NCBI RefSeq assembly: GCF_014174165.1
Contig: NZ_JABEQN010000001.1
Coordinates: 310,001-374,000, forward strand
Origin: Gluconacetobacter dulcium
GTDB lineage: Bacteria > Pseudomonadota > Alphaproteobacteria > Acetobacterales > Acetobacteraceae
Length of the DNA stretch: 64,000 nucleotides
Direction of reading: 5' to 3'
Below, in pieces: positions 26,642 through 58,003 of this stretch. The position numbers were made by a program, and so were the translations under genes. Position 1 is the first letter of the stretch, and the number at the start of each line of letters is the position of its first letter. The notes under the pieces are model-generated. The model saw only the letters and a program-made list of their open reading frames with translations, was not told the origin of the DNA and did not search any database.

Positions 26642-27705
26642 CTACAGTTGCGCTTTCTGTTTGCTATGAGAGAGGCAGGCTGCAACCTGATGAGCGCGTC
26701 GAAAGAACGACCATCGGAGGATATGCCCGATGGAGGCGCGGCTTCGGGTCCTCTTCATGGCAAGACGGCGGATTTCCTGGATTGACCAGCGGATGAGCTG
26801 TCGCGTTAGTCCAACTGGCTTTTTTTGAGCGCCATGGCGTTGGCCTTGGACCGCACAGCGGCCATCATGGCGTAAGCCAGCATGACCAGCGAGACGTGAC
26901 GGTGCCAACCATGCCAGGATCGGGTCTCGTTGTGGTCGAGGCCGAATTCGTTCTTGGCGGTCTCGAAACCCTCTTCAATGCGCCAGCGCGTACCCTCGAC
27001 GCGCACCAGGGTCTCGAGCGGTGTTCCCTGAGGGCACCAGGTCGTGAAATACGCCAGGTCGCCATCGGAGGGATTGCGCCGGACCAGCAGCCCACGGGTC
27101 CATGTCCCGGTTGAGGTCTCTGAATATTCGGAGGCTTCGAGATCGGCCATCGGGCAATACAGCCAGTCATACAGCCGCTCGCCCTTGGTGCCGTGTCCGG
27201 CGGAACAGCGGACCCAGGCGGCGTCCGGCAGGGTGTCGACAATCTCGCGCGCCTCGCCGGCCCAGCAGACATCCGGCCGCCAGGAATGGAAGTGATGATT
27301 GGCATTCACGCCCAGAACATAGCTCCGGCCGGCACGGCGCAAAGCCATTTCCAACTCCCCGACGCCATAGACGCTGTCGCCGGCCACCCACCGGAACGGC
27401 ACATCGGCCGCAAGCGCCCGACCGATCATCACGGTGGCCAGAGACGGTTTGCTGGCAAACTGGACATCGTCCGGCACATGGGCCGCCGCCAAGCGCTCAG
27501 GCTTTTCCGTCCAGGCCTTCGGCAGATACAAAGCCCGGTCGAGAAATGCGTGCCCCATGGCGGAGACACAAGCCGTGAACACGCCAATCTGGCAATTCGT
27601 GATCTTGCCCGCGGACCCGTTATATTGCCGTCCTACCCCGCACGATGCAGTCCCCTTCTTGAGAAAACCGGTCTCGTCGACCACCAGCACCGCGTCGGTA
27701 TCCCC
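26642..27705 (-). mobile_element. Degenerate IS701-family transposase remnant
   Basis: Transposase-like sequence of the IS701 type with recognisable acidic catalytic residues: Asp in VLVVDETGFLKKG, Asp in VAGDSVYGVGE and Glu in WRIEEGFETAKNEF. The N-terminal 90-100 residues expected before this block are missing. Homology appears to begin at about 27705, and the frame then runs into unrelated sequence up to 27855. Near the 3' end the frame stops at 26806, but the adjacent frame continues with typical C-terminal sequence (LTRQLIRWSIQEIRRL, FFRRAHQVAA) to 26642. The shift falls at a run of seven A (minus strand, 26820-26826). No clear terminal inverted repeats or target duplication were found. 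Confidence 0.75.
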
Positions 27706-27710
27706 CTTTA

Positions 27711-28114
27711 CCCTGTATTCTCCGCTCGCATTCGCCATCGCAACATTGATCGTACTCTGGACAGGCTGACCAACCCTGCGCTGGCTGCTGCCCATGCCGC
27801 TCGGGCGCTCAACGATCATGCTGGCCTTGCGCTTCACACGCGATGGGCGCGTCACCCTGCATCGCGACCCGCGCCATGCCGGCTGGATCTTCGTCTATTT
27901 CACGAGCCTGTCTGTTCTCGCCACCGTCAGCCCGTTCGGTGGCCAACATCTTCTTTCCACCGCATCGACCGACCTGGCAACCATCCTGTTCGCCGTCGCG
28001 ATCCATGAGTGGGCCGGCCGCTGCCACCTCCCCTCACCAGCACGCCAAGAGAGAGAAAGAAAACCATTGCCCGACTTTACCCCACCCTCACGGACGAAAT
28101 TTCACCCCAGCTAA
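27711..28114 (+). pseudogene. C-terminal fragment of a membrane permease
   Basis: One plus-strand frame encodes hydrophobic segments (SPLAFAIATLIVLWTG, then WIFVYFTSLSVLATVSPFGG and LATILFAVAIHEWAG) with a basic connector (LALRFTRDGRVTL). This resembles the last helices of an amino-acid-permease-like transporter. The frame is broken by a TGA at 27767-27769, and its 5' end is lost where the IS701-type sequence begins. There is no start codon or ribosome-binding site. I infer that an insertion destroyed a transporter gene here. The family assignment is weak. Confidence 0.4.
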
Positions 28115-28122
28115 AATTCTGA

Positions 28123-28147
28123 TTGACAGTTTGAAGGAATACTTCAA
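28123..28147 (+). promoter_or_regulatory. Promoter element and palindromic operator before the XRE-cupin gene
   Basis: A consensus -35 hexamer TTGACA (28123-28128) is followed after 2 bp by a perfect inverted repeat TTGAAG-GAATA-CTTCAA (28131-28147). The repeat fills the space where a -10 spacer would be, so a bound protein would block RNA polymerase. The -10 box is not clear (AATCGT at 17-bp spacing, TATGAC further on). Autoregulation by the following gene's product is the simplest reading. Confidence 0.5.
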
Positions 28148-28170
28148 TCGTATGACGGAACGAACTGGGT

Positions 28171-28848
28171 ATGGTACGATTTGCGATGTCTCAACAGGGT
28201 TCACGCACCTCTCGACTAGCGCAGGCGGACGGCCTTGCCCCACTGGGGCAAAGGCTGCGTGCCGTCCGCCAGGAGCGTGGCCTGACCCTGAAAGATGTCG
28301 CCAGCGCAGCGGGTTTTTCCGTAGGCTTCATCTCGCAGGTGGAACGCGGCATCACCGTCCCGTCCCTGACATCCCTGCTCTCGATCGGCCAGGCTCTGGG
28401 CATCGACACCAACGATTTCTTTTCCAACTTCCGGCTGGAAAAGGATGCAGGCGAAGAACGTCACGAACGGTCGCTGGACCCATCGACCCATACAGCGGTT
28501 CGATACGAACGCCTGTCCGTTCCCTTCCAGGGAAATATCCTGCGCAGCGTGATCATCCATAAGCCGCCCGGCTTTCGCGACGCACCCGTCAGCCATGAGG
28601 GCGAGGAAATCTTCTTCGTGCTGGCCGGGGAAATCACCCTGGAAGTCGCCGGCCACCGCGCGATCCTTCGTACGGGCGATTCAGCGCATTTCCAGTCGAC
28701 GCACAAGCATTCGGTCTGGAACCATACCATGCAACCCGCCTCCGTCCTGCACACCTGCACGATGGATGTGTTCGCCGAAGATGGGCATGTCACGCCCGTC
28801 ACCGATGTCGTGGCAATAACCCGCTCCCGAAAACGGAGCGATGCATAG
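28171..28848 (+). CDS. XRE-family regulator with cupin sensor domain
   Basis: A 225-residue regulator. Its helix-turn-helix (about residues 25-80) contains LTLKDVASAAGFSVGFISQVERG. A C-terminal cupin barrel (about 135-205) includes FRDAPVSHEGEEIFFVLAGE and FQSTHKHSVWNH, which likely bind a small ligand. Such proteins usually repress or activate neighbouring catabolic genes in response to the substrate. It heads Cluster A, and a perfect palindrome lies in its own promoter. The ATG at 28171 is used; an in-frame ATG at 28186 is possible. No strong ribosome-binding site distinguishes them. Confidence 0.88.
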   Translation: MVRFAMSQQGSRTSRLAQADGLAPLGQRLRAVRQERGLTLKDVASAAGFSVGFISQVERGITVPSLTSLLSIGQALGIDTNDFFSNFRLEKDAGEERHERSLDPSTHTAVRYERLSVPFQGNILRSVIIHKPPGFRDAPVSHEGEEIFFVLAGEITLEVAGHRAILRTGDSAHFQSTHKHSVWNHTMQPASVLHTCTMDVFAEDGHVTPVTDVVAITRSRKRSDA

Positions 28849-28919
28849 TCATGGCACGCAAGTAACATCGCGACACTTTCCCAAAAAGGGACAGTGCAAA
28901 GGCTACATCAATAAACACA

Positions 28920-28943
28920 CCGGCCGGATCATCATCCGACCGG
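28920..28943 (+). promoter_or_regulatory. Inverted repeat in the leader of the GAF gene
   Basis: Arms CCGGCCGGAT and ATCCGACCGG (nine of ten pairs) with a 4-nt loop lie directly upstream of the ribosome-binding site of the GAF-protein gene. It could be an operator or an RNA hairpin that influences translation. There is no T run after it, so it is not a typical terminator of the regulator gene. Confidence 0.45.
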
Positions 28944-28956
28944 CGAGGGAAAGATC

Positions 28957-29433
28957 ATGTCCGAACAACTGGACGATATCTTCATTCCAGCAATGCAGAA
29001 CGGGTGCGAACAACCCGCGGGCATGTTTCATGCGCTGCACACGCTCGCGGACCAGACGGTGGGGGTCAAGCTGTTCACCATCACGGCCTATGATCTGGAA
29101 AAGGGCGTTTCCGAGCGCCGCTATACCAACATGCCCGATGCCTATCCCGTATCGGGCACCAAGCCGCTCAGCCCCGGAAAATGGTCCACCATCGTCCTTG
29201 AACGGCACGAGACGTTCGTGGCCAACACGATTTCGGAAATCGCCGAAGTCTTCAACGACCACGCCCTGATTCATTCGCTCGGCTGCGCCTCGGTCATCAA
29301 TGTTCCCGTCATCGTCGGCGGGCGGAATATCGGCAGCATCAACTGCCTGCACGAGGCCGGACATTACACGCCCTCGCGCGTTCAGGCGGCGCAGTTTCTC
29401 AAGGTTCCAGGCGCAGTCTGCCTCTTGTCATAA
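28957..29433 (+). CDS. GAF-domain protein of the hydantoinase cluster
   Basis: A 158-residue protein made of a single GAF domain. It shows typical segments such as MFHALHTLADQTVGVKLFT, a WSTIVLERHETFVANT stretch, and SLGCASVINVPVIVGGRNIG with GSINCLHEAGHYT. GAF domains bind small molecules. No output domain is attached, so it may act as a ligand-binding accessory or a partner of the XRE-cupin regulator. It is followed 24 bp later by the hydantoinase A gene, indicating one operon. The exact role is unknown. The C-terminus (AVCLLS) is short compared with many GAF proteins. Confidence 0.75.
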   Translation: MSEQLDDIFIPAMQNGCEQPAGMFHALHTLADQTVGVKLFTITAYDLEKGVSERRYTNMPDAYPVSGTKPLSPGKWSTIVLERHETFVANTISEIAEVFNDHALIHSLGCASVINVPVIVGGRNIGSINCLHEAGHYTPSRVQAAQFLKVPGAVCLLS

Positions 29434-29457
29434 CAATCTCGGTCAGGAGATCGGATT

Positions 29458-31545
29458 ATGTCACGAAAAACGATCCGCGTAACAACAGATGTCGGCGGAA
29501 CATTCACAGATCTGGTCTGTTTCGAAACCGATCACGCCACAGGCGAGTCGCATGTCCTGACGGCCAAATCGGATACGACGCCCCCGAACTTCGAGCAGGG
29601 GGTTCTGAACGTCATCGAAAAGGCCGGGATAACGGCCAGCACGATCGATTTTCTCGCCCACGGCACAACGGTGGTCATCAACGCACTGACCGAGCGCAAG
29701 GGCGCGAAGGTCGGCCTGATCAGCACCGAGGGCTTTCGAGACATCCTGGAAATCGCCCGAGGAAACCGACCCGATTTCTTCAACCTCAATTACCGCAAGC
29801 CGCCGCCGTTCGTGCCCCGCCACCTGCGCGCGGAACTGCCGGGCCGACTGTCCTACAAAGGCGAGGAATCCACGCCCCTCGATATGGCCGCGCTGCCCTC
29901 CATCATCGACATGTTTCGTGCCGAAGGCGTGCAGGCCATCGCGGTCTGCTTCCTGCACTCGTACACCAATCCATCGCATGAACAGGCCGTAACAGCCGAA
30001 ATCCGTCGTCTGTGGCCCGAGGTTTCCGTCGTCGCCTCCCACCAGATCACCCGCGAATGGCGGGAGTATGAACGGACGAACACGACCGTCCTGTCGGCCT
30101 ATGTCCAACCGGTGGCCGAACGCTACCTGTCGCGCCTGCGCAGCGGCCTGAGCGATCGCGGCTTTGCCGGAAACCTTTTCATCATGCAGTCGAATTGCGG
30201 GGTCGATTCCGTCGACTCCACCGCGGCGACCCCGATCACGATGGTCGAATCCGGCCCCGCCTCCGGCTTCTGGGGCGCCGCCGAACTGGGGCGCATGATC
30301 GGCGAGCCGAACGTGCTGGCGCTCGATATCGGCGGCACCACGGCCAAATGCTCGCTGATCGAGAATGGCCAGGTCCGGATCATGACCGATTACTGGATCG
30401 AACGGGACCGGACCTCCGCCGGCTATCCGATCATGGTGCCGGTCGTCGACCTGGTGGAAATCGGCAACGGTGGCGGGTCCATCGCCTGGGTCGATGAATT
30501 CGCCAAACTCCATGTCGGTCCCAAATCCGCCGGGGCCAGTCCCGGTCCCGCCGCGTACGGACGCGGCGGCACCGACGCGACGACGACCGATGCGAATCTC
30601 TGGCTGGGCCGCATCAACCGCGATTATTTCTGCGGCGGGTCGGTGAAGGCCGACATGGAGGCGGCCGAACGCGCACTGGAGGCGCTCGGCGCGAAGATCG
30701 GCATCTCCACCACCGACGTGGCGCGCGGCATCATCCGCATTGCCAATAACAACATGACCAATGCGCTGAAGCTGATTTCGCTGAACCGGGGTTTCGACCC
30801 GCGCGACTTCACACTGGTCGCCTTCGGCGGCGGCGGCGCGATGCACGCGGTCGCACTGGGCATGGAACTCGGCGTACGCAAGGTCGTCATCCCCGCCAGC
30901 GCGTCCGTGTTCTCGGCCTGGGGCATGATGATGTCCGACCTCCGGCACGATTATTTCGTGACACGCCTGATGGACATGGCCGAGGGTGCCGAAAGCGCGA
31001 TCGCCACCCTGTTCGCCGAAATCGAGGCTGCCGCCACCGAACGCTTCGTCCAGGAAAGCGTGCCGGCCGAGAGCATCCGCTTCATCCGCTACGTCAAACT
31101 GCGTTACCAGAACCAGGAACATACAACCGAGGTGCCGATCCCCGCCGGAGACCTCGCCGCCGGACATCTGGCGGACATCCTGGCGGCCTTCCACCAGACC
31201 TACGAACGCGAATACACCTACCGCCTGGATGCGCCCGTCGAGATGGTCGGCGTGCATCTGGTGGCCTCGGCCGCTGTCGGCAAGCTGAACATGAAGGAAA
31301 GGCCCAGCGGCCCGCCCGACGCCGACGGTGCCCTCAAGGGCCGCCGACAGGTGGATTACGCGCAGGACGGCCTGCACGAGGCGGCGATCTATAACGGCGA
31401 CCGCCTTGCCCCCGGCATGCGTTTCCAGGGCCCCGCCATCGTCGAGGACAGCGGTACCACCATCGTAATCCATCCCGGCAACACGGTGTCCGTCGACGGA
31501 TACGGCAATCTTCATATCCTTCTCGTTTCCGGAGAAGCCGCATGA
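29458..31545 (+). CDS. hyuA: ATP-dependent hydantoinase/oxoprolinase, subunit A
   Basis: A 695-residue HyuA-type protein. The actin-like ATPase fold shows the N-terminal phosphate loop DVGGTFTDLV (about residues 11-20) and the second ALDIGGTTAKCSL (about 288-300). The family segment AFGGGGAMHAVALGMELG is present (about 460-475). With a B subunit, these enzymes use ATP to open cyclic amides such as N-methylhydantoin, 5-oxoproline or caprolactam; others carboxylate ketones. An AGGAGA ribosome-binding site precedes the ATG. The stop overlaps the hyuB start (ATGA). The substrate cannot be named from sequence; see the cluster finding. Confidence 0.9.
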   Translation: MSRKTIRVTTDVGGTFTDLVCFETDHATGESHVLTAKSDTTPPNFEQGVLNVIEKAGITASTIDFLAHGTTVVINALTERKGAKVGLISTEGFRDILEIARGNRPDFFNLNYRKPPPFVPRHLRAELPGRLSYKGEESTPLDMAALPSIIDMFRAEGVQAIAVCFLHSYTNPSHEQAVTAEIRRLWPEVSVVASHQITREWREYERTNTTVLSAYVQPVAERYLSRLRSGLSDRGFAGNLFIMQSNCGVDSVDSTAATPITMVESGPASGFWGAAELGRMIGEPNVLALDIGGTTAKCSLIENGQVRIMTDYWIERDRTSAGYPIMVPVVDLVEIGNGGGSIAWVDEFAKLHVGPKSAGASPGPAAYGRGGTDATTTDANLWLGRINRDYFCGGSVKADMEAAERALEALGAKIGISTTDVARGIIRIANNNMTNALKLISLNRGFDPRDFTLVAFGGGGAMHAVALGMELGVRKVVIPASASVFSAWGMMMSDLRHDYFVTRLMDMAEGAESAIATLFAEIEAAATERFVQESVPAESIRFIRYVKLRYQNQEHTTEVPIPAGDLAAGHLADILAAFHQTYEREYTYRLDAPVEMVGVHLVASAAVGKLNMKERPSGPPDADGALKGRRQVDYAQDGLHEAAIYNGDRLAPGMRFQGPAIVEDSGTTIVIHPGNTVSVDGYGNLHILLVSGEAA

Positions 31546-33209
31546 GCGACAGCACGGGCCAGGCCGGCCACGACCCGATCACGCTGGAGATCATCCAGAA
31601 CTCGCTCCAGGCCGTGGCGGACGAGATGTTCGCCACCATGCGCAAGACGGCGATGAGTTCGATCATCTATGAAGTTCTCGACATGGGAACGGGCATCCTG
31701 GATGCACGGGGCCGCATCGCCTCTTCGGGCGCGGGCATCCCCTCGTTCGTGGGCGTGCTGGACAAGGCCGTTCAGGTCCTGCTGGCCAAGTTCCCGCAGG
31801 AGACGATCCAGCCGGGCGACGTCTTCATCACCAACGACCCCTATTATGGCGGCGTGACCCACCTGAACGACCTGGTGGTCGCCATGCCGGTCTTCGCGGA
31901 AGGGCGCCTCATCGCCTGGACCGCGAACATCGCCCATAATTCCGATGTCGGTGGCATGGCACCCGGCTCCCTTTCGGTCCAGGCAACCGAAATCTTCCAG
32001 GAAGGTCTTCGCCTGCCCGCCATCCGCCTGATCGATGCCGGCGAGGCAAACGAGTCGGTCTTCGCGATCCTGCGCTGCAACTCGCGAATGCCCAATTTTC
32101 TGGAAGGCGACCTCTGGGCCGCCATCGCCGCCGTGCGGATCGGCGCCCGCCGCCTGACGGAACTGGCGACGAAATACGGCGTCGCGACGTTCGAAACAGC
32201 GATGGAAGGGTTCATGACCTTCGGCGAGAAGGTCACGCTCTCCACCCTCGCCTCCCTGCCCCACGGCACCTTCGCACTGGACGAGGAGCAGGATGACGGC
32301 CGCGTCTACAACGTGAAGGTCACCATCTCGCCCACCGAATTCGTCGTCGACCTGCGTAACAACCCCGATCAGGATGTCGGACCCACCAATACCAGCCGCG
32401 ACGGCGCCATGATCTGCGCGCAGATGATGCTCAAGGCGCTGTGCGACCCTCAGTCCCCCGCCAATGACGGCACCTTCCGGCCGATCCGCCTGCTGACGCG
32501 CGAAGGCTCGGTCTTCCATGCGCGCGAACCCGCCGCGATCGGCTTTTATTTCGAAACCGAAGTGCGCGTCTTCGACCTCATCTGGCGCTGCCTGGCGCAA
32601 CACATGCCCGAGCGTCTGGGGGCCGGGCATTTCGCCACGATCGGCGGTACGTTCATCGGCGGCATCCACCCCGATACGGGCCGGCAATACACCATCATCG
32701 AACCGCAGATCGGCGGCTGGGGCGGGCGCGAGGGCCATGACGGCAACAGCGCCCTGTTCTCGGGCTTCCACGGCGAAACCTACAATTGTCCCGCCGAGAT
32801 TTCCGAGGCCCGCAACGGCCTGCATATCGGCCGGATGGCACTGCATACCGGGCCGGGCGGCGAGGGCCAGTGGTGCGGCGGGCGCGGCATCGTCATCGAC
32901 TACGGCGTGCGCCAGGACAATTCCTTCCTGACGATCGGCTATACGCGCTCGCGCATCATGCCGTGGTCCCTCAAGGATGGGCATGAGGGAACGGGCAACT
33001 ATGCGCTGATCCTGCGCCGCGACGGCACGCAGGAACGCCATGCCTTCGTCTCCGGCCTGCGCGTGGACAAAGGCGACGTGATCCGCATCGTCACCGGCAC
33101 CGGTGGCGGCTATGGCAACCCAGCCCTGCGCGACCCCGCCCTGGTGGCACGGGACGTGAAGAACGGCCTGATCACCGCCGAACACGCGCAACGCATCTAC
33201 ACGACCTGA
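31542..33209 (+). CDS. hyuB: Hydantoinase/oxoprolinase subunit B, first copy
   Basis: A 555-residue HyuB-type subunit translationally coupled to hyuA. Conserved family segments are EMFATMRKTAMSSIIYE, SSGAGIPSFVGVLDKAV, TNDPYYGGVTHLNDLVV and, towards the C-terminus, QIGGWGGREGHDGNSA and TYNCPAEISEARN. It should contribute the ring-opening site of the A/B complex in the cytoplasm. The length is normal. A 103-bp gap follows before the M24 peptidase gene. A second, clearly paralogous B gene lies after the peptidase. Confidence 0.9.
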   Translation: MSDSTGQAGHDPITLEIIQNSLQAVADEMFATMRKTAMSSIIYEVLDMGTGILDARGRIASSGAGIPSFVGVLDKAVQVLLAKFPQETIQPGDVFITNDPYYGGVTHLNDLVVAMPVFAEGRLIAWTANIAHNSDVGGMAPGSLSVQATEIFQEGLRLPAIRLIDAGEANESVFAILRCNSRMPNFLEGDLWAAIAAVRIGARRLTELATKYGVATFETAMEGFMTFGEKVTLSTLASLPHGTFALDEEQDDGRVYNVKVTISPTEFVVDLRNNPDQDVGPTNTSRDGAMICAQMMLKALCDPQSPANDGTFRPIRLLTREGSVFHAREPAAIGFYFETEVRVFDLIWRCLAQHMPERLGAGHFATIGGTFIGGIHPDTGRQYTIIEPQIGGWGGREGHDGNSALFSGFHGETYNCPAEISEARNGLHIGRMALHTGPGGEGQWCGGRGIVIDYGVRQDNSFLTIGYTRSRIMPWSLKDGHEGTGNYALILRRDGTQERHAFVSGLRVDKGDVIRIVTGTGGGYGNPALRDPALVARDVKNGLITAEHAQRIYTT

Positions 33210-33312
33210 CCACCGCCGGCACGCCGGCACCAGAAACCAACGATCTCCTTTTTCCTGCCAGTGTGAATGGACAGGTCCGGATGGCAGCCGGACGGCCAAA
33301 AGGTGGGTGACC

Positions 33313-34446
33313 ATGCAATATATTACGATAAAGCAACGACTTGCGCGCCTCAGGCATCGCATGACGGATGACGGCGTGGACCTGCTGGTCCTGGGTCCGG
33401 GCACCTATGTCGAATGGCTGCTTGGCTTCCATCCCTATCCAGACGAGCGCCTGTCGCTGCTGCTGGTCGGGCGGCAGCAGGCCATGTTCGTCATGCCGGC
33501 ACTCAACGCAGCGGACACGCAGGCGCGCAGCGATCTTCCCCTCGCCACCTGGACCGATGCGCAGGGACCGGCGCAGGCCCTGCAAACGGCCCTGGCGGCG
33601 ACCTGCCCACCCGAGGTGCCGCTCCGCGTCGGCCTCGACGAGGCCATGCGCACCGATTTCGCCCTGGCCGTGCTCGACCGGCTGCCTGGTGCCAACGTGG
33701 TGATGGCCCGCGATGTCGCCGGCGCGGCGCGGATGCTGAAGGACGAGGAGGAATACAGGCTCCTCAAGGAGAATGCGGCGATCGCCGACCGTGCCATGCT
33801 GCACGCCCTGGCAACCATGCGTCCGGGCATGACCGAGGCGGAAGTGGCCGAAGGCATAGCCGGCGCCTTCGCCGCGGAAGGCGCGAAGGTCAAGTTCGCC
33901 GTCGTTGCCACCGGCCCGAACGGTGCCCTGCCCCACCACCATACGGGTGCCGCCGTGCTGTCGCCGGGCGATGCCGTCGTCATCGATATCGGCGCTCGCC
34001 GCGATGGCTATTGCAGCGACATCACCCGCATGGCCGTGCTGGAGCACGAGCCGGAAGGCTACGCGGAGATCCACGCGATCGTAGAGGCCGCCGTGCAGGC
34101 GGCGCTGAAGGCCGCGCGCCCCGGCGCCACGGCATCCTCGGTCGACCGTGCCGCGCGCGGGGTGATCGAACAGGCGGGCTACGGGCCGTATTTCGTCCAC
34201 CGTACCGGCCATGGCCTGGGCATGGAAGGGCACGAGGCCCCCTTCATCACCGAAACATCCGAAACAATTCTCGAAGCCGGCATGGTGTTTTCCATCGAGC
34301 CTGGAATCTATCTGCCAGGCCGTTTCGGCATCCGCCTGGAGGAAATCGTCTTCCTGCGCGATGACGGGCCGGAAATCCTCTCCGACCTGCCTCGCACCCT
34401 TTCCGTGATCCCGCCCCACGGCCAGGACCAGACCGATGACCGCTGA
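33313..34446 (+). CDS. M24-family metallopeptidase (Xaa-Pro dipeptidase/creatinase fold)
   Basis: A 377-residue pita-bread-fold protein. All five expected metal ligands are visible: Asp in VVIDIGARRDG, Asp in CSDITRM, His in HRTGHGLGMEGHE, Glu in SIEPGIYLPG and Glu in RLEEIVFL. This favours a two-metal peptidase (aminopeptidase P or prolidase type) over creatinase, which lacks the metal site. The ATG at 33313 has AGGTGG at good spacing; a GTG two codons earlier is less likely. It overlaps the second hyuB by 11 bp, so it belongs to the operon and probably hydrolyses the ring-opened product. Confidence 0.88.
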   Translation: MQYITIKQRLARLRHRMTDDGVDLLVLGPGTYVEWLLGFHPYPDERLSLLLVGRQQAMFVMPALNAADTQARSDLPLATWTDAQGPAQALQTALAATCPPEVPLRVGLDEAMRTDFALAVLDRLPGANVVMARDVAGAARMLKDEEEYRLLKENAAIADRAMLHALATMRPGMTEAEVAEGIAGAFAAEGAKVKFAVVATGPNGALPHHHTGAAVLSPGDAVVIDIGARRDGYCSDITRMAVLEHEPEGYAEIHAIVEAAVQAALKAARPGATASSVDRAARGVIEQAGYGPYFVHRTGHGLGMEGHEAPFITETSETILEAGMVFSIEPGIYLPGRFGIRLEEIVFLRDDGPEILSDLPRTLSVIPPHGQDQTDDR

Positions 34447-36004
34447 CACGATCACGCGCACCGTCATCCAGTCCGTCATCGCCTCCGCGGCCGAGGAGAT
34501 GTTCGCCATCCTGAAGAAGACGGCAATGAGTCCCGTCATCTACGAGGTGCTGGATGTCGGCACCGGCATCACCGATGCCGACGGCAATCTTCTCAGTTCC
34601 GGCGCAGGCATTCCCACCTTCGTCGGTGTCCTGGACAAGAGCGTGAAATGGATTCTGTCCGTCCATCCGCGCGACAGCCTGCGCGAAGGCGACATGTTCG
34701 TGACGAACGACCCCTATCACGGCGGCGTCACGCATCTGAACGATGTCGTCGTGGCGCTGCCGGTGTTCGCCGACGGGCAGTTGATCGCCTGGACCGCCTC
34801 CATCGCCCACTGGAACGATATCGGCGGCCTGGTCATCGGGTCCATGTCGACCGACGCGACCGAGATCTTCCAGGAAGGTCTGCGCCTTCCCGCCGTGCGC
34901 CTGTGCGCGGCGGGAAGGCAGTTGGATGCGGTGTTCGACATCATCGCGGCCAACAGCCGCCTGCCCGATTTCGTCCGGGGCGACCTGTGGGCCCAGATCG
35001 CCGCGTCCCGCCTGGCCGCGCGCAGGCTGGTCGACATGGTCGGCCTGTATGGGCAGGCAGCCTATCGCGACGCCGTCGACCATCTGTTCGCGGAAGGGGA
35101 AGCCCGCGTCCGGTCCGGCCTGGCCGCACTTCCCCACGGCACGTTCTCGCTGACCGAGACCCGCGATGACGGCACCCCCTGGTCGGTCACCGTCACGATC
35201 ACCGCCGAGCGGATGACCGTCGACCTGCGCGATGCACCGGACCAGCGTGCGGCCCCGTACAACACCACGCGCGACGGCGCGGTCATCGCCGCGCAGATGA
35301 TCCTGAAGGCCCTGGCCGACCCGACGCCCGCCGCCAACGCGGGCTCGTTCCGGCCACTGGAGGTCCTCACGCGCCCCGGCACGATCTTCCACGCGGACGG
35401 CACCGCCCCGCATGGCTATTATTTCGAGATCCGGATCGGGCTGTACGACCTGCTGTGGCACTGCATCGCGCAGGCCATGCCCGATCGCCTGCCCGCGGGT
35501 CATTTCAGTTCGATCTGCGGCACCGTCGTCGCCGGACTCCACCCGGATACCGGCCGGCGTTTCACAATGGTGGAACCGCAGATGGGAGGATGGGGAGCGA
35601 CCGCGGAACGGGAAGGCGAAACCGCGCTCTATTCCGCATGCCATGGCGAGACATTCAACTGTCCCGCCGAAATTGTCGAAAGCCGCTACGGCCTCGATGT
35701 CCTCTACCGCCGCCTGAACCCGGCCCCGGCATCCACCGGACGGCATCCCGGCGGCCAGGGGCTGTCGATGTGCTACGGCGTCCGGGCAAAAGCCATCCTG
35801 TCGGCAGGCTATAGCCGAACGCGCCAGCCGGCATGGGGATCGGCCGGCGGGGGGCCGGGCGGCACGAACCGCCTCGCCATCACACACGCCGACGGCCGCA
35901 CGGAAAACCACGCCTTCGTGTCCGGCCTGTCGCTCCAGCCCGGCGACAGGATCGAAATCGGCACGGCGAACGGCGGGGCATGGGGAGCCGGCGCGGGCGG
36001 CTGA
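34436..36004 (+). CDS. Hydantoinase/oxoprolinase subunit B, second copy
   Basis: A 522-residue HyuB paralogue of the first copy. Parallel segments are EMFAILKKTAMSPVIYE, SSGAGIPTFVGVLDKSV, TNDPYHGGVTHLNDVVV and FNCPAEIVESRYG. The N-terminus is about 15 residues shorter and the C-terminus ends in a Gly/Ala-rich tail (GTANGGAWGAGAGG). No second A subunit is present, so both B proteins may share the single HyuA, or this one may have a different specificity. It overlaps the M24 gene. The TonB receptor gene follows after about 60 bp. Confidence 0.87.
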   Translation: MTADTITRTVIQSVIASAAEEMFAILKKTAMSPVIYEVLDVGTGITDADGNLLSSGAGIPTFVGVLDKSVKWILSVHPRDSLREGDMFVTNDPYHGGVTHLNDVVVALPVFADGQLIAWTASIAHWNDIGGLVIGSMSTDATEIFQEGLRLPAVRLCAAGRQLDAVFDIIAANSRLPDFVRGDLWAQIAASRLAARRLVDMVGLYGQAAYRDAVDHLFAEGEARVRSGLAALPHGTFSLTETRDDGTPWSVTVTITAERMTVDLRDAPDQRAAPYNTTRDGAVIAAQMILKALADPTPAANAGSFRPLEVLTRPGTIFHADGTAPHGYYFEIRIGLYDLLWHCIAQAMPDRLPAGHFSSICGTVVAGLHPDTGRRFTMVEPQMGGWGATAEREGETALYSACHGETFNCPAEIVESRYGLDVLYRRLNPAPASTGRHPGGQGLSMCYGVRAKAILSAGYSRTRQPAWGSAGGGPGGTNRLAITHADGRTENHAFVSGLSLQPGDRIEIGTANGGAWGAGAGG

Positions 36005-36064
36005 CCGCGCCAGGACACAACAACACACCGCGTCACGACATCACGCGGATATCAGGTGGAAATC

Positions 36065-38428
36065 ATGAGAAAGCACATATCGAAAAAGCAGGTCATTCTG
36101 GCGTCCGTCTTCTCGCTCGGGCTGATGCCCGCGGGCGTGGAAAACGCATTCGCCGCGGTCGACACCGCCAGCGACCCCCCGACCAAGCGACAGGGGCAGA
36201 CCGGCAAGCCTGCCGCTACCCCGACGGCAAAGGCGAAGGCAGACAGCACCCAGGCCGCCGTGGCGGCACCCATGGCGGCGCCGGCACAGCCGGCCGCTCC
36301 GCAGTCCGAAGCCATCGTCGTCACCGGCCTGTCGCGCCAGCAGAAACTGCAATCCGCCCCCGTTTCGGCCACCGTCTTCACGGCGACCAATATCAAGGAT
36401 GCGCATATTCAAGGTGTGAGCGACTTCATCGCCCTGACCCCGAACGTCTCCATCACCCAGGCGCAGCAGGCCGGCGTGTCCTTCATCACCATTCGCGGCA
36501 TCACCCAGGTCCGCAACGGCCAGAGCCCGGTCGCGGTGATCGTGGACGGCGTGCAGCAGATGGATTCCCGCCAGTTCACGCAGGATCTCTACGATGTCGG
36601 CCAGATCGAGGTGCTGCGCGGCCCGCAGGGCGACCTGTGGGGGCGCAACGCCATCGGCGGCGCCATCGTCATCAATACGCGCCAGCCGACGAACACGTTC
36701 TACGCCCATGCCGACGCCCAGTTCGGCAATGGCGCCGATTACCGGGGCAAGATTTCCTTCGCCGGCCCGATCGTGAAAGACCGCCTGTTCTACGATGTCA
36801 ATTTCAGCGAACACTCCTTCGGCGGCCTGCTGGAAAACGTCTACCTCAACAAGACCGTCGATCGCTCCAACGAATATACCGGCCGTGGCCACATCAAGGC
36901 CGTCATCACCGACGACCTGACCGCCGACTTCCGCGTCGGTTTCGACGAAACACAGGGCGGCGCCAACAACTATCACTACCAATCCGCAAAATACGACCCG
37001 AGCCGCCCCTGCTTCCTGGACCCGACGGACCCGTTCGGCGGCCCCGCGCCGGATGCGAACAGGGTCAGCCGCACCTTCTGCGCGAACAACCGGGGCGACA
37101 ACCAGCGCGACATCCGCAATGCGTCGTTCCGCCTGGTCTATACGCAGCCCTTCGCGACCTTCTCCAACACGCTGGGCTGGGTGAAGATCAACGAATATAT
37201 CGGCACGGACCAGTTCCCCTACACCGCAACGCGCGGTTCGGGCTATGACGGCACGCAGACCCAGTGGGCACAGAATACCTCGTGGGAAGACGAATTCCGC
37301 GTCACGTCACGCTCCGATCGCCGTTTCCGCTGGATGGGCGGCGGCTATTTCCTCGACACGCGCGACTATCTGGCCTCCACCACCGGGGCGGACACCGGCA
37401 AAGGCATCGCCCGTATCAGCACCTCGCCGCTTTACGGATACGCGCCCAACCAAACGCTGACCTATTTCGGCAACTCGGACCACAACCAGGACTTCGCGCT
37501 GTTCGGCCATCTGTCCTATGATATCCTCAAGAACCTGACAGCGGAATTCGGCTACCGGTACGATTGGAATTCTCTGAACCAGTATGTGAATCCTGAAAGC
37601 AGCGGCGGCGTGCCCGCCGGCTGCACCATGTCGGGCGGGTCCTGCCGGCGCACGCGCTGGTTCAAGCAGGGGCAGCCCAAGGGCACGCTGACCTATCACG
37701 TCAACCCGAACCTGACCTTCTTCGTCGATTACGGCATCGGTTTCCGCAGCGGGCAGTTCAACCAGAACGGCACGGCGGAAGCCGCGCACCTGCCGGGCGT
37801 CTACAATACCGTAAAGCCCGAGGTGGCGAACACGGTCGAAGCCGGCTTCAAGAGCCAGTGGTTCCATAATCGCCTGACTCTGAACGGCTCCTTCTTCGAC
37901 ACGCGCGACCGCAACTCGTTCTACTTCCTGTTCGTCGGCTCGGTCGGCGCGCAGATCCTCGTCAACATCAACAAGATCCACCTGACGGGCGGCGAACTGG
38001 AGGCGAAATACGCCATCCTTCCCGGCCTGGATGTGTTCGCCAACGGCGGCTACACCCACAGCTCGATCACCAAATACACGTTCGACCGCGCCGACCAGGG
38101 CAACTGGGCACCCTATATTCCCGAATTCACCGCCAATATCGGCGTGCAGTATCACCATGCCTTCAACCGCTGGCTCGGCTTCTTCGGCCGCTTCGATGTC
38201 GAGGCCAAGGGCAAGCAGTATTGGGACCCGGAAAACGCGACACCGCGCAACGCCTTCAATCTCTATAACCTGCAGGTCGGCGTCGAAAGCCCCAACCGGA
38301 AATGGTCCGCCACTTTCTATGTCAACAACCTGACCGACACCCGCTACAACGCCGAGTACGTCTCCGGCGGCTTCGCCCAGCCGGCCGAGCCCCGCATGCT
38401 GGGGGGCGAGATCCAGTACACCTACTGA
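36065..38428 (+). CDS. TonB-dependent outer-membrane receptor of Cluster A
   Basis: A 787-residue TonB-dependent transporter. After a signal peptide ending near ENAFAA comes an Ala/Pro/Lys-rich linker and a TonB-box-like EAIVVTG. The plug domain shows VAVIVDGVQ, QIEVLRGPQGDLWGRNAIGGAI and VINTRQP. The beta-barrel ends with LGGEIQYTY, whose last residue is aromatic as usual. The ATG at 36065 is preceded by AGGTGGA; an upstream in-frame GTG is less likely. It lies in the hydantoinase operon and should import the substrate or a precursor across the outer membrane. A very strong hairpin follows. Confidence 0.92.
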   Translation: MRKHISKKQVILASVFSLGLMPAGVENAFAAVDTASDPPTKRQGQTGKPAATPTAKAKADSTQAAVAAPMAAPAQPAAPQSEAIVVTGLSRQQKLQSAPVSATVFTATNIKDAHIQGVSDFIALTPNVSITQAQQAGVSFITIRGITQVRNGQSPVAVIVDGVQQMDSRQFTQDLYDVGQIEVLRGPQGDLWGRNAIGGAIVINTRQPTNTFYAHADAQFGNGADYRGKISFAGPIVKDRLFYDVNFSEHSFGGLLENVYLNKTVDRSNEYTGRGHIKAVITDDLTADFRVGFDETQGGANNYHYQSAKYDPSRPCFLDPTDPFGGPAPDANRVSRTFCANNRGDNQRDIRNASFRLVYTQPFATFSNTLGWVKINEYIGTDQFPYTATRGSGYDGTQTQWAQNTSWEDEFRVTSRSDRRFRWMGGGYFLDTRDYLASTTGADTGKGIARISTSPLYGYAPNQTLTYFGNSDHNQDFALFGHLSYDILKNLTAEFGYRYDWNSLNQYVNPESSGGVPAGCTMSGGSCRRTRWFKQGQPKGTLTYHVNPNLTFFVDYGIGFRSGQFNQNGTAEAAHLPGVYNTVKPEVANTVEAGFKSQWFHNRLTLNGSFFDTRDRNSFYFLFVGSVGAQILVNINKIHLTGGELEAKYAILPGLDVFANGGYTHSSITKYTFDRADQGNWAPYIPEFTANIGVQYHHAFNRWLGFFGRFDVEAKGKQYWDPENATPRNAFNLYNLQVGVESPNRKWSATFYVNNLTDTRYNAEYVSGGFAQPAEPRMLGGEIQYTY

Positions 38429-38436
38429 TCGTCCAC

Positions 38437-38469
38437 GGGGAGCCGTGCGGCCTCACCGCACGGCTCCCC
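38437..38469 (+). terminator. Strong hairpin after the TonB receptor gene
   Basis: Perfect 14-bp arms (GGGGAGCCGTGCGG / CCGCACGGCTCCCC) with a 5-nt loop start 8 bp past the stop. Only CTTTC follows instead of a long T run, so it may terminate partially or protect the upstream mRNA, with some read-through into the permease gene. Confidence 0.65.
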
Positions 38470-38534
38470 GGCTTTCGATGCTGTCTGGCAGGCCGACCTT
38501 TCAAACAGCCTCTTTCTTCATGCAGGAGACGCGC

Positions 38535-39800
38535 ATGCACGCGACGCACGACGAACATACCGCCAACGCCGTGCCCGAGGCCGAACGCGGCTCGGCATGG
38601 CGGATCTTCTTCATCGTCGCGGGTACGCAATGCGGCCTGCCCGGCTTCGTCCTCTCCGCGCGCATCCTCTCGGCCCTCGGCCTTCATGACGGCATCGCCG
38701 CGATCATCGCCAGCGCCCTGATGACGGCGCTGCTGGCCGCCTTCACCTCCTGGCTCGGCGCCGCCACGGGCATGAGCCTCTCCCTTCTGAGCACACGCAT
38801 CTTCGGCCCTTACGGCGCCGTCATTGTCCGAACGGTCATCGGCGTCTCGCTGGTCGGATGGTTCGGGGCCACCATCGGGCTGCTGGGCAGCACGGCCGCG
38901 CCCGCACTCAGCGAGCAGTTCCATCTGCACATCTCCCCGCATCTGGTCTCGGCCCTCGCCGGCATCGGCATCGTCATCGGCACCTGCATGGGGGCGCGTG
39001 GTCTCGAACGGATCGGCCAGATCGTCATTCCCGTCGTGGCACTCGGGCTGATCGCCGGCATCGCGCGAACATGGCATGCCCTGCCGGCCGCCGCCCTGCA
39101 CGGCGGCACCCACGCCCTGACCTTCGGAGGGGCCGTCTCGGCGATGATCGGCTCCTACGTCGTCGGCATCATCATCCAGCCCGATTACAGCCGCTTCGTG
39201 CGGTCGCCGAATGCCGCCGCCGGCGCCGTCGTGGCCGCGCTGGCGCTGGCCTATCCGGTCATCATGATCGCATCGGGCATCCCCTCCCTGGCTCTGGGGC
39301 GGCCCGACCTCGTCTCCGCCCTCGTCGCGCTGGGCTTCGGCATCCCCGCGCTGCTGGTGCTGGTTCTCAGCGCGTGGATCGACGCCTCGGCCTGCCTGTA
39401 TTCGGGCAGCCTCGCCCTGGCAAACCTGCTCCAGGGCCGCCGCCTGTGGCCCTATGTGCTCGGCAGCGGCATCATCGGTGGCATTCTGGAACTTGGGGGC
39501 CTGACCGATGCCTATGTGCGCTTCCTGCTCCTGCTCGGCATCGTCCTGCCCCCGATCGCCGCCATCCTGATCGTGGACACCCTGATCGGCCTCCCGGCCA
39601 ATGCCGGGCGGCCGGCGGCGGGCAGGCAGCATGTCGCGATCCTGGCCTGGATATGCGGCGGCATCGCCGGCGCCCTGTCCGAATGCGGCATGACGAGCCT
39701 GACGGCCATTCCCACCTTCGACGGGCTGCTGGTCTCGGCCTGCATCATGACGGTCGCCAGCCTCTACGGGCGTCTCACCGCATCCGATCCGGCCATTTGA
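38535..39800 (+). CDS. NCS1-type cytosine/purine/hydantoin permease
   Basis: A 421-residue inner-membrane transporter with about twelve hydrophobic helices. It resembles the CodB branch of the NCS1 family, for example in SYVVGIIIQPDYSRFVRSPN and a first helix region with FIVAGTQCGLPGFVLSARI. NCS1 proteins import nucleobases, allantoin or hydantoins by cation symport. The ATG at 38535 has AGGAG at 6-nt spacing; further upstream ATGs lack this. It is the last gene of Cluster A, after a hairpin, and fits as the inner-membrane importer for the ring compound opened by HyuAB. Confidence 0.85.
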   Translation: MHATHDEHTANAVPEAERGSAWRIFFIVAGTQCGLPGFVLSARILSALGLHDGIAAIIASALMTALLAAFTSWLGAATGMSLSLLSTRIFGPYGAVIVRTVIGVSLVGWFGATIGLLGSTAAPALSEQFHLHISPHLVSALAGIGIVIGTCMGARGLERIGQIVIPVVALGLIAGIARTWHALPAAALHGGTHALTFGGAVSAMIGSYVVGIIIQPDYSRFVRSPNAAAGAVVAALALAYPVIMIASGIPSLALGRPDLVSALVALGFGIPALLVLVLSAWIDASACLYSGSLALANLLQGRRLWPYVLGSGIIGGILELGGLTDAYVRFLLLLGIVLPPIAAILIVDTLIGLPANAGRPAAGRQHVAILAWICGGIAGALSECGMTSLTAIPTFDGLLVSACIMTVASLYGRLTASDPAI

Positions 39801-47259: not shown

Positions 47260-48168
47260 TCACGCCATGATCGCACGATTGATCAAAGCGATCTGGTCAG
47301 TGCAGAGCGCGGCCAGGCGCTTCGCGTCGTTACCCGGAGAAACCCCGGGCGGAACGATCACCTGCACGGGAAAGACGCATTCCACATCCAGTGGACGGAT
47401 CGTCAATTGCTCACGATGCGCAAACGCGGTCACCACATCCACCACCGCCACGCCCAGCCCGTTCTGGACCATGGCACAGGCGCAGGCACTGTTCTGGGTT
47501 TCGACGAATGATGTCGCTTCCAGCCCGTTCTGGCTGAAATATTCCCCGATCGGATTGCCCAGGGCGAATTGCTGCGAAAAGAAGATCAACCGGTGCCGCA
47601 CCAGATCCTTCACCCTGATCCGCCTTGCCCGCGTCAGCGGATGTCCATGCGGTGCCACCACGGCGGCATGAATCATCAGCGTGCGGTCGATCGTCACACT
47701 GCCCGTCCCCTGCACCGGCAGGGCGAAGCCGATATCCGCGCCATTGCTGCCGACCATATGATGCACGTCCAGCGAACTGAGCACTGACAGCGAGAAGCGC
47801 AGTTCCGGCCGCACGGCAATCCAGGACGGCAACGCACCGGGCAGCAGATGGGTACCGATCGCCGGCATGGCGGCAATCCGGATCTGCACCCCCTTTGCAT
47901 GCCGCAGCCCGTTCAGCGTCACGTCCACATTGCGCATGGCGCCGAACAGGCCCTTCAGGTCCGCCATCAGCACATGGGCCGCATCGGTCGGCGCCAGCCG
48001 GCGGCGCGCGCGGTCGAACAGCGCAGTGCCGGTCTCGGCCTCCAGATGCCGGATCAGCTTGGTGATCGCAGGCTGCGACAGATGCATCATCCGCGCCGCC
48101 GCGCTGACCGACCCGGTCTGGCACACGGCCATGAAAGCACGAAGCTGGTGGAAACGTTGGGGCGTCAT
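47260..48168 (-). CDS. LysR-family regulator of Cluster B
   Basis: A 302-residue LysR-type regulator. The helix-turn-helix is at about residues 5-62 (GSVSAAARMMHLSQPAITKLI) and a substrate-binding domain follows, with the usual segment NGLGVAVVDVVTAF. The start at 48168 (MTPQRFHQLRAF) was chosen by family comparison; the upstream open stretch is AT-rich and probably promoter. It diverges from the TonB receptor gene with about 138 bp between starts, so Cluster B (receptor, FAD oxidoreductase, multicopper oxidase) is its likely target. Sequence features resemble activators such as CbbR/GalR-type LysR proteins, but the ligand is unknown. Confidence 0.88.
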   Translation of the reverse strand: MTPQRFHQLRAFMAVCQTGSVSAAARMMHLSQPAITKLIRHLEAETGTALFDRARRRLAPTDAAHVLMADLKGLFGAMRNVDVTLNGLRHAKGVQIRIAAMPAIGTHLLPGALPSWIAVRPELRFSLSVLSSLDVHHMVGSNGADIGFALPVQGTGSVTIDRTLMIHAAVVAPHGHPLTRARRIRVKDLVRHRLIFFSQQFALGNPIGEYFSQNGLEATSFVETQNSACACAMVQNGLGVAVVDVVTAFAHREQLTIRPLDVECVFPVQVIVPPGVSPGNDAKRLAALCTDQIALINRAIMA

Positions 48169-48306
48169 CGACTTCGCTACCTGTAGATATGAAAAGGCAA
48201 ACAAAAAGAATTTGTAGTTATCATGACAGAGCCGTAACAGACAAATCAGAAATTCCCTCGTTTCCGTAACGAAGGCCATATTTCAGCACGCGGAGATCCA
48301 GAGACC
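48169..48306. promoter_or_regulatory. LysR-TonB receptor divergent promoter region
   Basis: This 138-bp gap is AT-rich (about 48175-48260) compared with its neighbours and must contain the promoters of both divergent genes. A LysR-type T-N11-A site is expected, but I could not single one out. Confidence 0.4.
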
Positions 48307-50880: not shown

Positions 50881-50920
50881 AAAAACACGAATATAAAACA
50901 GACGTTCAGAAGGAAACGAT

Positions 50921-54177: not shown

Positions 54178-54193
54178 CCTCCGGGAAGGCGCT

Positions 54194-54211
54194 CCGGGCC
54201 GACCGGCCCGG
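54194..54211 (+). terminator. Terminator hairpin of Cluster B
   Basis: Arms CCGGGCC / GGCCCGG with a 4-nt loop, followed by CTCTTTC, lie 17 bp after the multicopper oxidase stop and just before the convergent small gene. It could serve both strands. Confidence 0.6.
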
Positions 54212-54216
54212 CTCTT

Positions 54217-54474
54217 TCAGGACGGAGATTTCGCCTTGCTCTGCCGGGGCTTCTTTTTCCCCGCCGGCTCGAACATCGCCCGACAGCGCGGCGACAACTG
54301 ATCGATCTTCTTTTTCATGCAGGCGGTTATCTTGTCTTCGTTGGGAATGGCGAAGGTGCACAGCTTGATCGCATCTCCGCGACAGGCTGCGCTCTGCTCC
54401 TCCCGCGACGCCGCATGTGCCGTGCTCACGAAGAGCGCGGGGATGGCAAACAAGGCAAATGCAGAAACTCTCAA
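54217..54474 (-). CDS. Small exported cysteine-containing protein
   Basis: An 85-residue protein if translation starts at a TTG (54472-54474), which is preceded by GGGGAG at good spacing. That start gives a clean signal peptide (RVSAFALFAIPALFVSTAHA). The open frame continues upstream to 54582, but that part is Arg-rich and unlike a signal. The mature part has four Cys in a regular pattern (AACRGDAIKLC, ITACMKKKIDQLSPRC) and a Lys-rich tail. Similar short proteins with this helical Cys pattern are widespread in alphaproteobacteria, without known function to my knowledge. Periplasmic location is inferred. Confidence 0.65.
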   Translation of the reverse strand: MRVSAFALFAIPALFVSTAHAASREEQSAACRGDAIKLCTFAIPNEDKITACMKKKIDQLSPRCRAMFEPAGKKKPRQSKAKSPS

Positions 54475-54760
54475 GGCGACTTCTCCCCAAAAGCCGGAGG
54501 ATCGACGAAGGGCGCCCCGAAAGGTACGGTTCAACGAGGCATGCCAACGCGAAATGCGGCGGATATCCTTCCGATAACGCATTCAACCATCAAGAGTTCT
54601 CTGCCGGGCCGTTCCCATCGGGCATGCGCTGGTTCGTGATCCCACCAGGCGCTTTCGCGCCGCATCCGGATCATGTTCCGACCGTTCCGCCATGCTCCAT
54701 TTGCCTTGCAGGCCGCCTTCCAGTCATAATTCATGACAGTTTCAGAACGGGAGCGGAGCA

Positions 54761-56011: not shown

Positions 56012-56023
56012 CCGGGGGCCGCC

Positions 56024-57901: not shown

Positions 57902-58003
57902 TTCGCCGAAAGAAAGCCCCAATCGCACGTCACGCTGTCCATTGTGTCCGGCCCCGTTCCTTCGTTCCATTTCCGTATCGCATCAGCATCAGGAACGATT
58001 GGC

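Follow-up and report, generated by a model that had tools for sequence, protein, structure and literature searches.

An eight-gene HyuAB locus of Gluconacetobacter dulcium with a possible role in the catabolism of proline-containing cyclic dipeptides

A 64,000-nucleotide stretch of the Gluconacetobacter dulcium genome (contig NZ_JABEQN010000001.1, positions 310,001 to 374,000; hereafter the window) was found to harbour eight co-directional genes on its forward strand, spanning 28171-39800, each of which matched a Pfam family above cut-off. In order, these encode an XRE-cupin regulator, a GAF protein, HyuA, HyuB1, an M24 peptidase, HyuB2, a TonB receptor and an NCS1-family permease. From comparative sequence analysis we propose, with moderate confidence, that these genes serve the inducible breakdown of 2,5-diketopiperazines that contain proline, either cyclo(Xaa-Pro) or cyclo(Xaa-hydroxyproline). 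The TonB receptor would carry this substrate over the outer membrane and the NCS1 permease over the inner membrane, following which HyuA would activate one ring amide using ATP, the metal site of HyuB1 or HyuB2 would hydrolyse the activated amide to a linear Xaa-Pro dipeptide, and the M24 enzyme would cleave that dipeptide to two amino acids. Induction would depend upon the XRE-cupin protein, acting on a palindrome before its own gene as a repressor until an effector occupies the cupin domain.

Predicted ring-opening and dipeptide-cleaving enzymes

A preliminary description, made from the sequence alone, had placed the eight genes on one strand with overlaps or short gaps, and this arrangement stands: the genes lie as placed (Table 1), with overlaps of 4 bases between HyuA and HyuB1 and 11 bases between M24 and HyuB2, to which we add a hairpin between the TonB receptor and NCS1 permease genes. 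The three-domain architecture of HyuA and the HyuB domain both scored above curated cut-offs, placing these proteins within the HyuA/HyuB superfamily, and the only PF02538 matches found in the whole genome were the genes encoding HyuB1 and HyuB2, which share 53% identity. The best solved relatives of HyuA were 7hk5, an N-methylhydantoinase, and 6yra_A, deposited as a 5-oxoprolinase and identified in the available part of PMC8453981 as the caprolactamase subunit CapA. The same text reports that an Asp-His-Asp-His metal tetrad (CapB D41, H99, D102 and H124) is essential in caprolactamase, as established by mutation, and a tetrad of this type is retained in both HyuB1 and HyuB2.

The superfamily is common to 5-oxoprolinase and caprolactamase, hence a pyroglutamyl or lactam route was considered, in which HyuAB opens 5-oxoproline or a pyroglutamyl (pGlu) dipeptide such as pGlu-Pro, and the resulting Glu or Glu-Xaa is, in the latter case, split by M24. 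Although pGlu-Pro would also account for a prolidase and a prolyl isomerase, we regard this route as quite unlikely: for free 5-oxoproline a peptidase, a TonB receptor and a second B subunit would all be superfluous, one caprolactam-pocket residue is changed (CapB Leu38 aligns with the Glu of YEVLD), and, against cut-offs of 1000 bits, the CapA model gave 531.9 bits with HyuA and the CapB model 220.8 bits with HyuB1 and 189.4 bits with HyuB2. As these scores fall short of the NCBIfam equivalog cut-offs, caprolactam or lactam hydrolase was rejected as a name. The acetophenone carboxylase gamma subunit model gave 304.8 bits, below its cut-off of 1500 bits.

The presence of two B subunits, previously held to be unusual, is shared with other loci (individual loci are denoted by L-numbers), in that HyuB2 forms a clade of six sequences (window, L004, L017, L018, L113 and L112; support 100/99). 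The possibility that HyuB2 is a dead subunit was rejected, given that the tetrad is intact in 6/6 members of this clade and that in L112, from the window's own family, a HyuB2-type protein was the sole B subunit found near HyuA in the stretch fetched; for the latter reason HyuB2 can probably act alone. Two specificities sharing one activating subunit would be the simplest account of the pair.

The full two-metal site previously ascribed to the M24 peptidase was borne out by an alignment of seven sequences, including a 25%-identical Thermus homologue, in which D227, D238, H302, E331 and E345 were invariant; these we take to be the five metal ligands of the M24 family. Among solved chains, it comes closest to dipeptidases and Xaa-Pro aminopeptidases, with scores of 202.7 bits for dipeptidase versus 54.8 bits for ectoine hydrolase and 47.6 bits for creatinase.

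Table 1. Features of the HyuAB locus and its flank, with positions in the window
Feature	Position	Strand	Basis
IS701-family transposase, cluster flank	26806..27855	-	NCBIfam NF033540, 339 bits, above cut-off
Palindrome TTGAAGgaataCTTCAA, predicted operator of the XRE-cupin regulator	28131..28147	+	Conserved pattern TTNNAG-N5-CTNNAA
XRE-family regulator with C-terminal cupin domain	28171..28848	+	Pfam HTH_31/HTH_3 and Cupin_2 above cut-off
Small GAF-domain protein	28957..29433	+	GAF_2 and GAF above cut-off
HyuA, predicted ATP-binding subunit of ATP-dependent cyclic-amide hydrolase	29458..31545	+	Three HyuA Pfam domains above cut-off
HyuB1, predicted metal-dependent hydrolytic subunit	31542..33209	+	PF02538, 504 bits; Asp-His-Asp-His tetrad intact
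M24 metallopeptidase, Xaa-Pro dipeptidase/aminopeptidase kind	33307..34446 (start GTG 33307 or ATG 33313)	+	Peptidase_M24, 205.8 bits, and Creatinase_N
HyuB2, predicted second metal-dependent B subunit	34436..36004	+	PF02538, 477 bits; tetrad intact
TonB-dependent outer-membrane receptor	36065..38428 (reading frame 36056-38428, likely ATG 36065)	+	Plug and beta-barrel domains above cut-off
15-bp GC hairpin between TonB and NCS1	38436..38470	+	Folding of 38425-38495
NCS1-family (CodB-like) inner-membrane permease	38520..39800 (reading frame 38445-39800; start 38520 or 38535)	+	PF02133 above cut-off

Related loci and the link to proline

In a HyuA tree, the window fell within a set of 11 sequences (support 100/99) nested in a clade of 34 (100/99). 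The 20 best plasmid matches of HyuA listed were 62-77% identical to it, and the same genes were annotated around part of them, those of L006-L008 being without M24 and the L010 record being unannotated. The core of regulator, GAF, HyuA, HyuB1, M24 and HyuB2 was found in the same order in L004 (a Qingshengfaniella plasmid) and L017, as it was in L018 and L113 save for a racemase gene placed ahead of M24; a peptide-type ATP-binding cassette (ABC) transporter is present in L004, L017 and L113. L003 (Roseateles) encodes a racemase (Asp/Glu/hydantoin racemase, PF01177) and M24 without a second HyuB, and the order in L009 (Thermus) is regulator, racemase, ABC, M24, HyuA, HyuB, HyuB. The binding proteins of L003, L004 and L009 are of the SBP_bac_5 family, and an L003 ATPase carries an oligopeptide/dipeptide transporter domain. 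The neighbourhood survey suggested in the preliminary description recovered the HyuA-HyuB1-M24-HyuB2 core in other loci, but the full HyuA-HyuB-M24-HyuB-TonB-NCS1 set in the window only, among the loci examined. In L010 (Rhizobium grahamii BG7), HyuB1 and DppC are each split across two frames, reflecting either sequencing error or decay.

Thirty-six loci of the window's HyuA clade were compared with 68 loci of other HyuA branches (controls). The former comprised the window, the plasmid matches, loci from a genome scan (best 80 loci) and from whole-genome samples, and L112, retrieved via the HyuB2 search; L020 and L025, in which HyuA is split over frames, were counted but lie outside the HyuA tree. 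L111, whose HyuA belongs to a different branch, is outside the 36, the controls include L131 and L132, and short loci duplicating longer ones were left out, as were L013-L015 from the family search. Gene labels represent the best phmmer match at E<=1e-5 to a small number of queries, with selected genes scanned with Pfam or NCBIfam.

M24 was identified in 13/36 clade loci versus 0/68 controls, and in 12 of the 13 it lies on the HyuA strand within 2.7 kb, that of L029 being 8.7 kb off on the other strand. XRE-cupin (14/36 versus 3/68), GAF (16/36 versus 1/68), family-5 binding protein (13/36 versus 4/68), TonB (10/36 versus 1/68), NCS1 (7/36 versus 0/68), cyclophilin (5/36 versus 0/68), proline-racemase family (4/36 versus 1/68) and M19 genes (2/36 versus 0/68) were also counted. 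M17 genes (2/36 versus 0/68) are weak evidence, as neither is near HyuA, the L006 copy being 5.4 kb off on the other strand and the L121 copy 7.1 kb off beside LptF/LptG. M20 genes, which include those for N-carbamoylases, were equally frequent in controls (2/36 versus 2/68) and were dropped as evidence for a dipeptide. A purine or allantoin link was similarly dropped: guanine-deaminase-kind amidohydrolases flank L010 and L018, the latter above the guanine deaminase cut-off, but the query was not enriched (2/36 versus 5/68).

Several linked genes point towards proline. In L129 and L130, where M24 is absent, a 407-aa amidohydrolase is encoded directly after HyuB; the copy in L128 (L128:3353-4156, by Pfam) may be broken, since its frame is 267 aa relative to 407. 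The L129 protein gave 225 bits with the Xaa-Pro dipeptidase model NF051886, below the cut-off of 500, and among solved structures it best matched 3mkv and 3feq/3n2c, the second of these entered in the database as prolidase; PMC10699109 names 3N2C as prolidase Sgx9260c and cites a paper whose title announces two novel prolidases. The prolidase-type amidohydrolase of L128-L130 is non-homologous to M24. An M19 membrane dipeptidase is encoded in L023 and L119, and an aminopeptidase-P-like M24 in L021 and L118. The proline-racemase-family gene of L022 scored above the 4-hydroxyproline epimerase cut-off (500 versus 442 bits) and adjoins DHDPS-family and flavin adenine dinucleotide (FAD)-oxidase genes, approximately 6 kb before HyuA, and in L006 a trans-3-hydroxyproline-dehydratase-like gene, below cut-off, directly follows HyuB.

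In five loci, a cyclophilin-type peptidyl-prolyl isomerase is encoded on the HyuA strand near TonB-HyuAB, directly after NCS1 in L120 and L121 and directly before TonB in L128-L130 (L128 by phmmer only). Cyclic dipeptides hold cis amide bonds and the opening of cyclo(Xaa-Pro) yields cis Xaa-Pro; prolidases prefer the trans form, although the whole words trans, isomer and cyclic had no match in a prolidase review. A prolyl isomerase would fit well between ring opening and dipeptide cleavage, as opening gives the cis product and prolidases act on trans. The hydroxyproline-type genes of L022 and L006, the amidohydrolases and the cyclophilins all fit a cyclo(Xaa-Pro) or cyclo(Xaa-Hyp) substrate.

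Two further neighbourhoods are worth recording. L120 encodes, beside TonB-HyuAB-NCS1-cyclophilin, a hut-like set (L120:4-4506) of urocanase (cut by the stretch end), aromatic amino acid lyase, amidohydrolase and N-formylglutamate amidohydrolase; a histidine link was treated as chance, in that the same queries that found these genes in genome G915 (L120) found none in the stretch from its congener G840 (L121). The control L071 (Phytoactinopolyspora), of another HyuA branch, likewise encodes close to HyuAB an amidohydrolase of the prolidase type and a member of the proline-racemase family, hence the proline link may extend past the clade.

It is a tentative suggestion, put forward with less assurance than the reading of the window itself, that the window and its relatives represent a dedicated proline-cyclic-dipeptide catabolic system in several bacterial groups. 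HyuAB would open the ring, served by interchangeable importers (TonB with NCS1, peptide-type ABC or sugar-type ABC) and interchangeable Xaa-Pro dipeptidases (M24, amidohydrolase-type and possibly M19), with a cyclophilin converting the cis product in one branch. The earlier idea of a catabolic HyuAB set with a dipeptide-like product is upheld to this extent by dipeptidase-type enzymes of unrelated families, peptide-type ABC systems and TonB with NCS1, all linked to HyuAB elsewhere. Amongst the candidate substrates then named, cyclic dipeptides, especially those containing proline, fit best; hydantoin fits less well with no M20 carbamoylase in the eight genes, as does caprolactam with its models far below cut-offs.

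Hydantoin use nonetheless has to be weighed: HyuAB would use ATP to open 5-substituted hydantoins to N-carbamoyl amino acids, and M24, in the manner of creatinase or ectoine hydrolase, would replace the M20 carbamoylase. The annotation of the best solved HyuA relative as N-methylhydantoinase is consistent with this, as are the inclusion of the hydantoin permease Mhp1 in NCS1, the M20 enzymes of L007, L115 and L111 (in the last beside TonB and NCS1), and the Asp/Glu/hydantoin-racemase-family genes of 13/36 clade loci versus 1/68 controls. However, the eight genes lack an M20 carbamoylase (an M20 gene is 16 kb away, at 56024-57427) and M20 is not enriched in the clade, the M24 enzyme scores with dipeptidases and far from creatinase and ectoine hydrolase, and hydantoin use would not predict peptide-type ABC systems or cyclophilins. 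We consider it unlikely.

A number of points weigh against the assignment to proline-containing cyclic dipeptides. The hydantoin alternative keeps some weight, as racemases are common in the relatives. The M24 family also holds non-peptidases, and with the PepQ equivalog model for Xaa-Pro dipeptidase (NF040821, cut-off 630 bits) the window enzyme reached 174.6 bits. The ligands of family-5 binding proteins are diverse, and the prolidase-type amidohydrolase is not enriched (4/36 clade loci versus 3/68 controls). No cyclophilin is encoded among the window's eight genes, and the five loci that do carry one fall together in a supported HyuA subclade that is not the window's. At approximately 200 Da, cyclic dipeptides are small enough for porins, so the TonB receptor needs explaining, and the hairpin before the NCS1 gene may uncouple the permease. 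As for the counts, the 36 loci are not a random sample; the control loci are shorter on average (18.2 versus 21.0 kb); the peptidase and isomerase queries, except M24, were chosen from clade loci, a choice that biases the counts towards the clade; and labelling by phmmer was incomplete, overlooking an M20 gene in the window itself (56024). Near kin also occur among the loci (L003/L010, L117/L118, L120/L121 and L128-L130), such that the counts are not independent, and they are given in place of Fisher p values, which ignore kinship.

Transport, regulation and flanking genes

The window differs from its relatives in transport, with TonB and NCS1 occupying the place of ABC systems. The TonB receptor, which had been thought to make the combination unusual, has counterparts in the clade, as the counts above indicate: both TonB and NCS1 flank HyuAB in L119, L120, L121, L128 and L129, TonB without NCS1 does so in L028, L030 and L130, and L024 has both in a less regular order. 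The receptor and permease are 61% and 51% identical, respectively, to a pair in genome G056 whose neighbours are an M20 peptidase gene and a HyuAB pair of a different kind; at the thresholds used, G056 was the only genome besides the window's own to match among 200 sampled family genomes. Family genomes with a match, own included, numbered 5/200 for HyuB2 (E<=1e-100), 2/200 for TonB (1e-150) and 2/200 for NCS1 (1e-60).

A signal-peptide-like stretch follows the likely start codon of the receptor, and its EAIVVTG motif is presumably TonB-box-like, the signal-peptide label being likewise our assumption. With the TonB siderophore receptor model TIGR01783 it gave 178.5 bits. One alternative, with this score in its favour, is the catabolism or salvage of an iron carrier built on a diketopiperazine, for example rhodotorulic acid, whereby TonB would import the iron complex and HyuAB would open the ring. 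Siderophore import is the classical function of TonB receptors, and the siderophores of fungi include some diketopiperazines. Yet the score is below the 223.5-bit cut-off, neither a ferric reductase nor an ABC importer for siderophores is encoded among the eight genes, NCS1 permeases are not known siderophore importers, and TonB was found in just ten of the clade loci, making an iron carrier the most improbable of the explanations considered.

The NCS1 permease is a member of its family by PF02133 (48.1 bits, cut-off 23.5), although the more specific CodB model (125.3 bits, cut-off 326) and TIGR00800 (72.4 bits, cut-off 353.1) fell short. CodB 7qoa was its sole solved relative at E<=0.001, and it was not found to be closer to Mhp1. 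By sequence the permease is CodB-like rather than Mhp1-like, which goes against its earlier assignment to a hydantoin or allantoin type. Its match to the G056 relative starts at residue 28.

The interval between the TonB and NCS1 genes folds strongly: the 71-nt stretch 38425-38495 has a predicted energy of -42.1 kcal/mol (z -4.64), with 0/200 shuffles as stable, and the hairpin overlaps the listed GTG start of NCS1 (38445). No counterpart of comparable strength was found in L111 (z -1.15). The window's hairpin may tune or end transcription, as an attenuator or terminator, and as it sits between these two genes, a single transcript through NCS1 is not certain.

The predicted operator, TTGAAGgaataCTTCAA, lies shortly after a TTGACA (28123-28128). 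Scanning for promoters gave no sigma-70-like site at the palindrome. The pattern TTNNAG-N5-CTNNAA has two matches in the window (28131, and 29735 inside HyuA), where 0.09 would be expected, the chance expectation being 0.09 to 0.17 matches per window. Near the XRE gene, the palindrome is exact in 7 of the 14 XRE-bearing clade loci and present with 1-2 mismatches in four more, and none was found near the regulator in L007, L009 and L020. Paired copies spaced 46-50 bases apart occur in L003, L004, L010 and L018, and the hybrid sites of L003 and L010 (TTGAAG with CTAAAA) bridge the window half-site and the commoner TTTTAG/CTAAAA. The GAF protein may be a ligand sensor or allosteric partner. Regulators of approximately 900 aa and LuxR type (GerE C-terminus) adjoin HyuAB in L021 (7131-9815), L120 (4557-7253) and L024 (8799-11525); as these occur where an XRE-cupin gene is absent, two unrelated regulator types appear to serve the HyuA clade.

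Upstream, the cluster is flanked by an IS701 transposase, and by nadABC-like genes and an NrtR-type regulator on the other strand; downstream, it is flanked by an Lhr helicase. The transposase bears on horizontal gain, and because HyuB2 matches were so few among the family genomes, the cluster appears to have been horizontally gained. The adjoining transposase and the patchy distribution of HyuB2, TonB and NCS1 relatives might also suggest a plain HyuAB that came to lie beside an unrelated M24, TonB and permease by chance and transposition. This we consider very improbable, as the genes overlap, the core order is kept in four other loci, the palindrome is conserved and each linkage recurs in different genomes. 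The transposase covers profile positions 79-363 of 363 (NF033540), and so may start elsewhere or be N-terminally short.

Elsewhere in the window, 47260-59095 encodes a LysR regulator (reverse strand), TonB receptor, FAD oxidoreductase, multicopper oxidase, major facilitator superfamily transporter, M20 peptidase and saccharopine-dehydrogenase-like protein, possibly a second catabolic cluster. Among the related loci, L119:16897-18480 is a 528-aa HyuA-like frame that matches the first HyuA domain (N-terminal) and some of the middle one, beside an S-Me-THD gene. Proteins with pepsin-type (A1) aspartic protease and/or avidin-family domains adjoin HyuAB in two Pseudomonas contigs and one Sphingomonadales contig (L022:17038-19020, L028:9387-11373 and L021:18364-19221), with both domains in one 661-aa protein in L022; L117 and L118 (family f194) encode relatives by phmmer only.

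Comparison with known systems

Cyclic dipeptides are described as abundant in the accessible part of PMC3852281, where the peptidases tested did not cleave them, three hydantoin- or dihydropyrimidine-cleaving strains degraded some of them, two recombinant D-hydantoinases did not, and the hydrolysing enzymes were called unclear in 2013. The authors of the caprolactam pathway, in the part of PMC6061476 available, suggested that some genes annotated as 5-oxoprolinase could encode lactamases or cyclic dipeptide hydrolases. Within the titles and abstract openings listed from the open-access library searched, no paper linking a HyuAB gene to a cyclic dipeptide substrate was found, PMC6061476 making the suggestion; papers with both diketopiperazine and hydantoinase had no such system in title or abstract opening. 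No paper in that library was found joining hydantoinase, Xaa-Pro and operon, or combining prolidase and cyclophilin with three further terms.

If the proposed reading is correct, the locus would name a gene for the first step of cyclic dipeptide breakdown, provide a marker operon for finding further cyclic-dipeptide loci, predict a role for prolyl isomerase in small-molecule catabolism, and explain the occurrence of 5-oxoprolinase-kind genes beside dipeptidases. The locus represents a variation on the HyuAB catabolic operon rather than a system of a new class.

ATP-dependent hydantoin utilisation involves hyuA-hyuB-hyuC with the racemase hyuE and the NCS1 permease Mhp1/HyuP. The window shares with it HyuA, HyuB and an NCS1-family permease, and its clade the racemase family, but it has M24 in place of the M20 HyuC, a second HyuB, a TonB receptor, XRE-cupin and GAF proteins, and a CodB-like permease. 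Its two-subunit HyuA/HyuB architecture and B-subunit tetrad resemble those of caprolactamase CapAB of Pseudomonas jessenii, so far as the available part of PMC8453981 describes it, from which the window proteins differ in their equivalog scores and in one pocket residue. The proposed ring opening to a linear dipeptide resembles the microbial cleavage of cyclic dipeptides in the accessible text of PMC3852281, though that study left unclear which enzymes are responsible, and no strain in it degraded cyclo(L-Pro-L-Tyr). Closest in layout is the Qingshengfaniella plasmid locus L004 (XRE-cupin, ABC transporter, GAF, HyuA, HyuB, M24, HyuB2), which shares the core genes and their order but has its ABC genes, including a family-5 binding protein, between regulator and GAF, whereas the window has TonB and NCS1.

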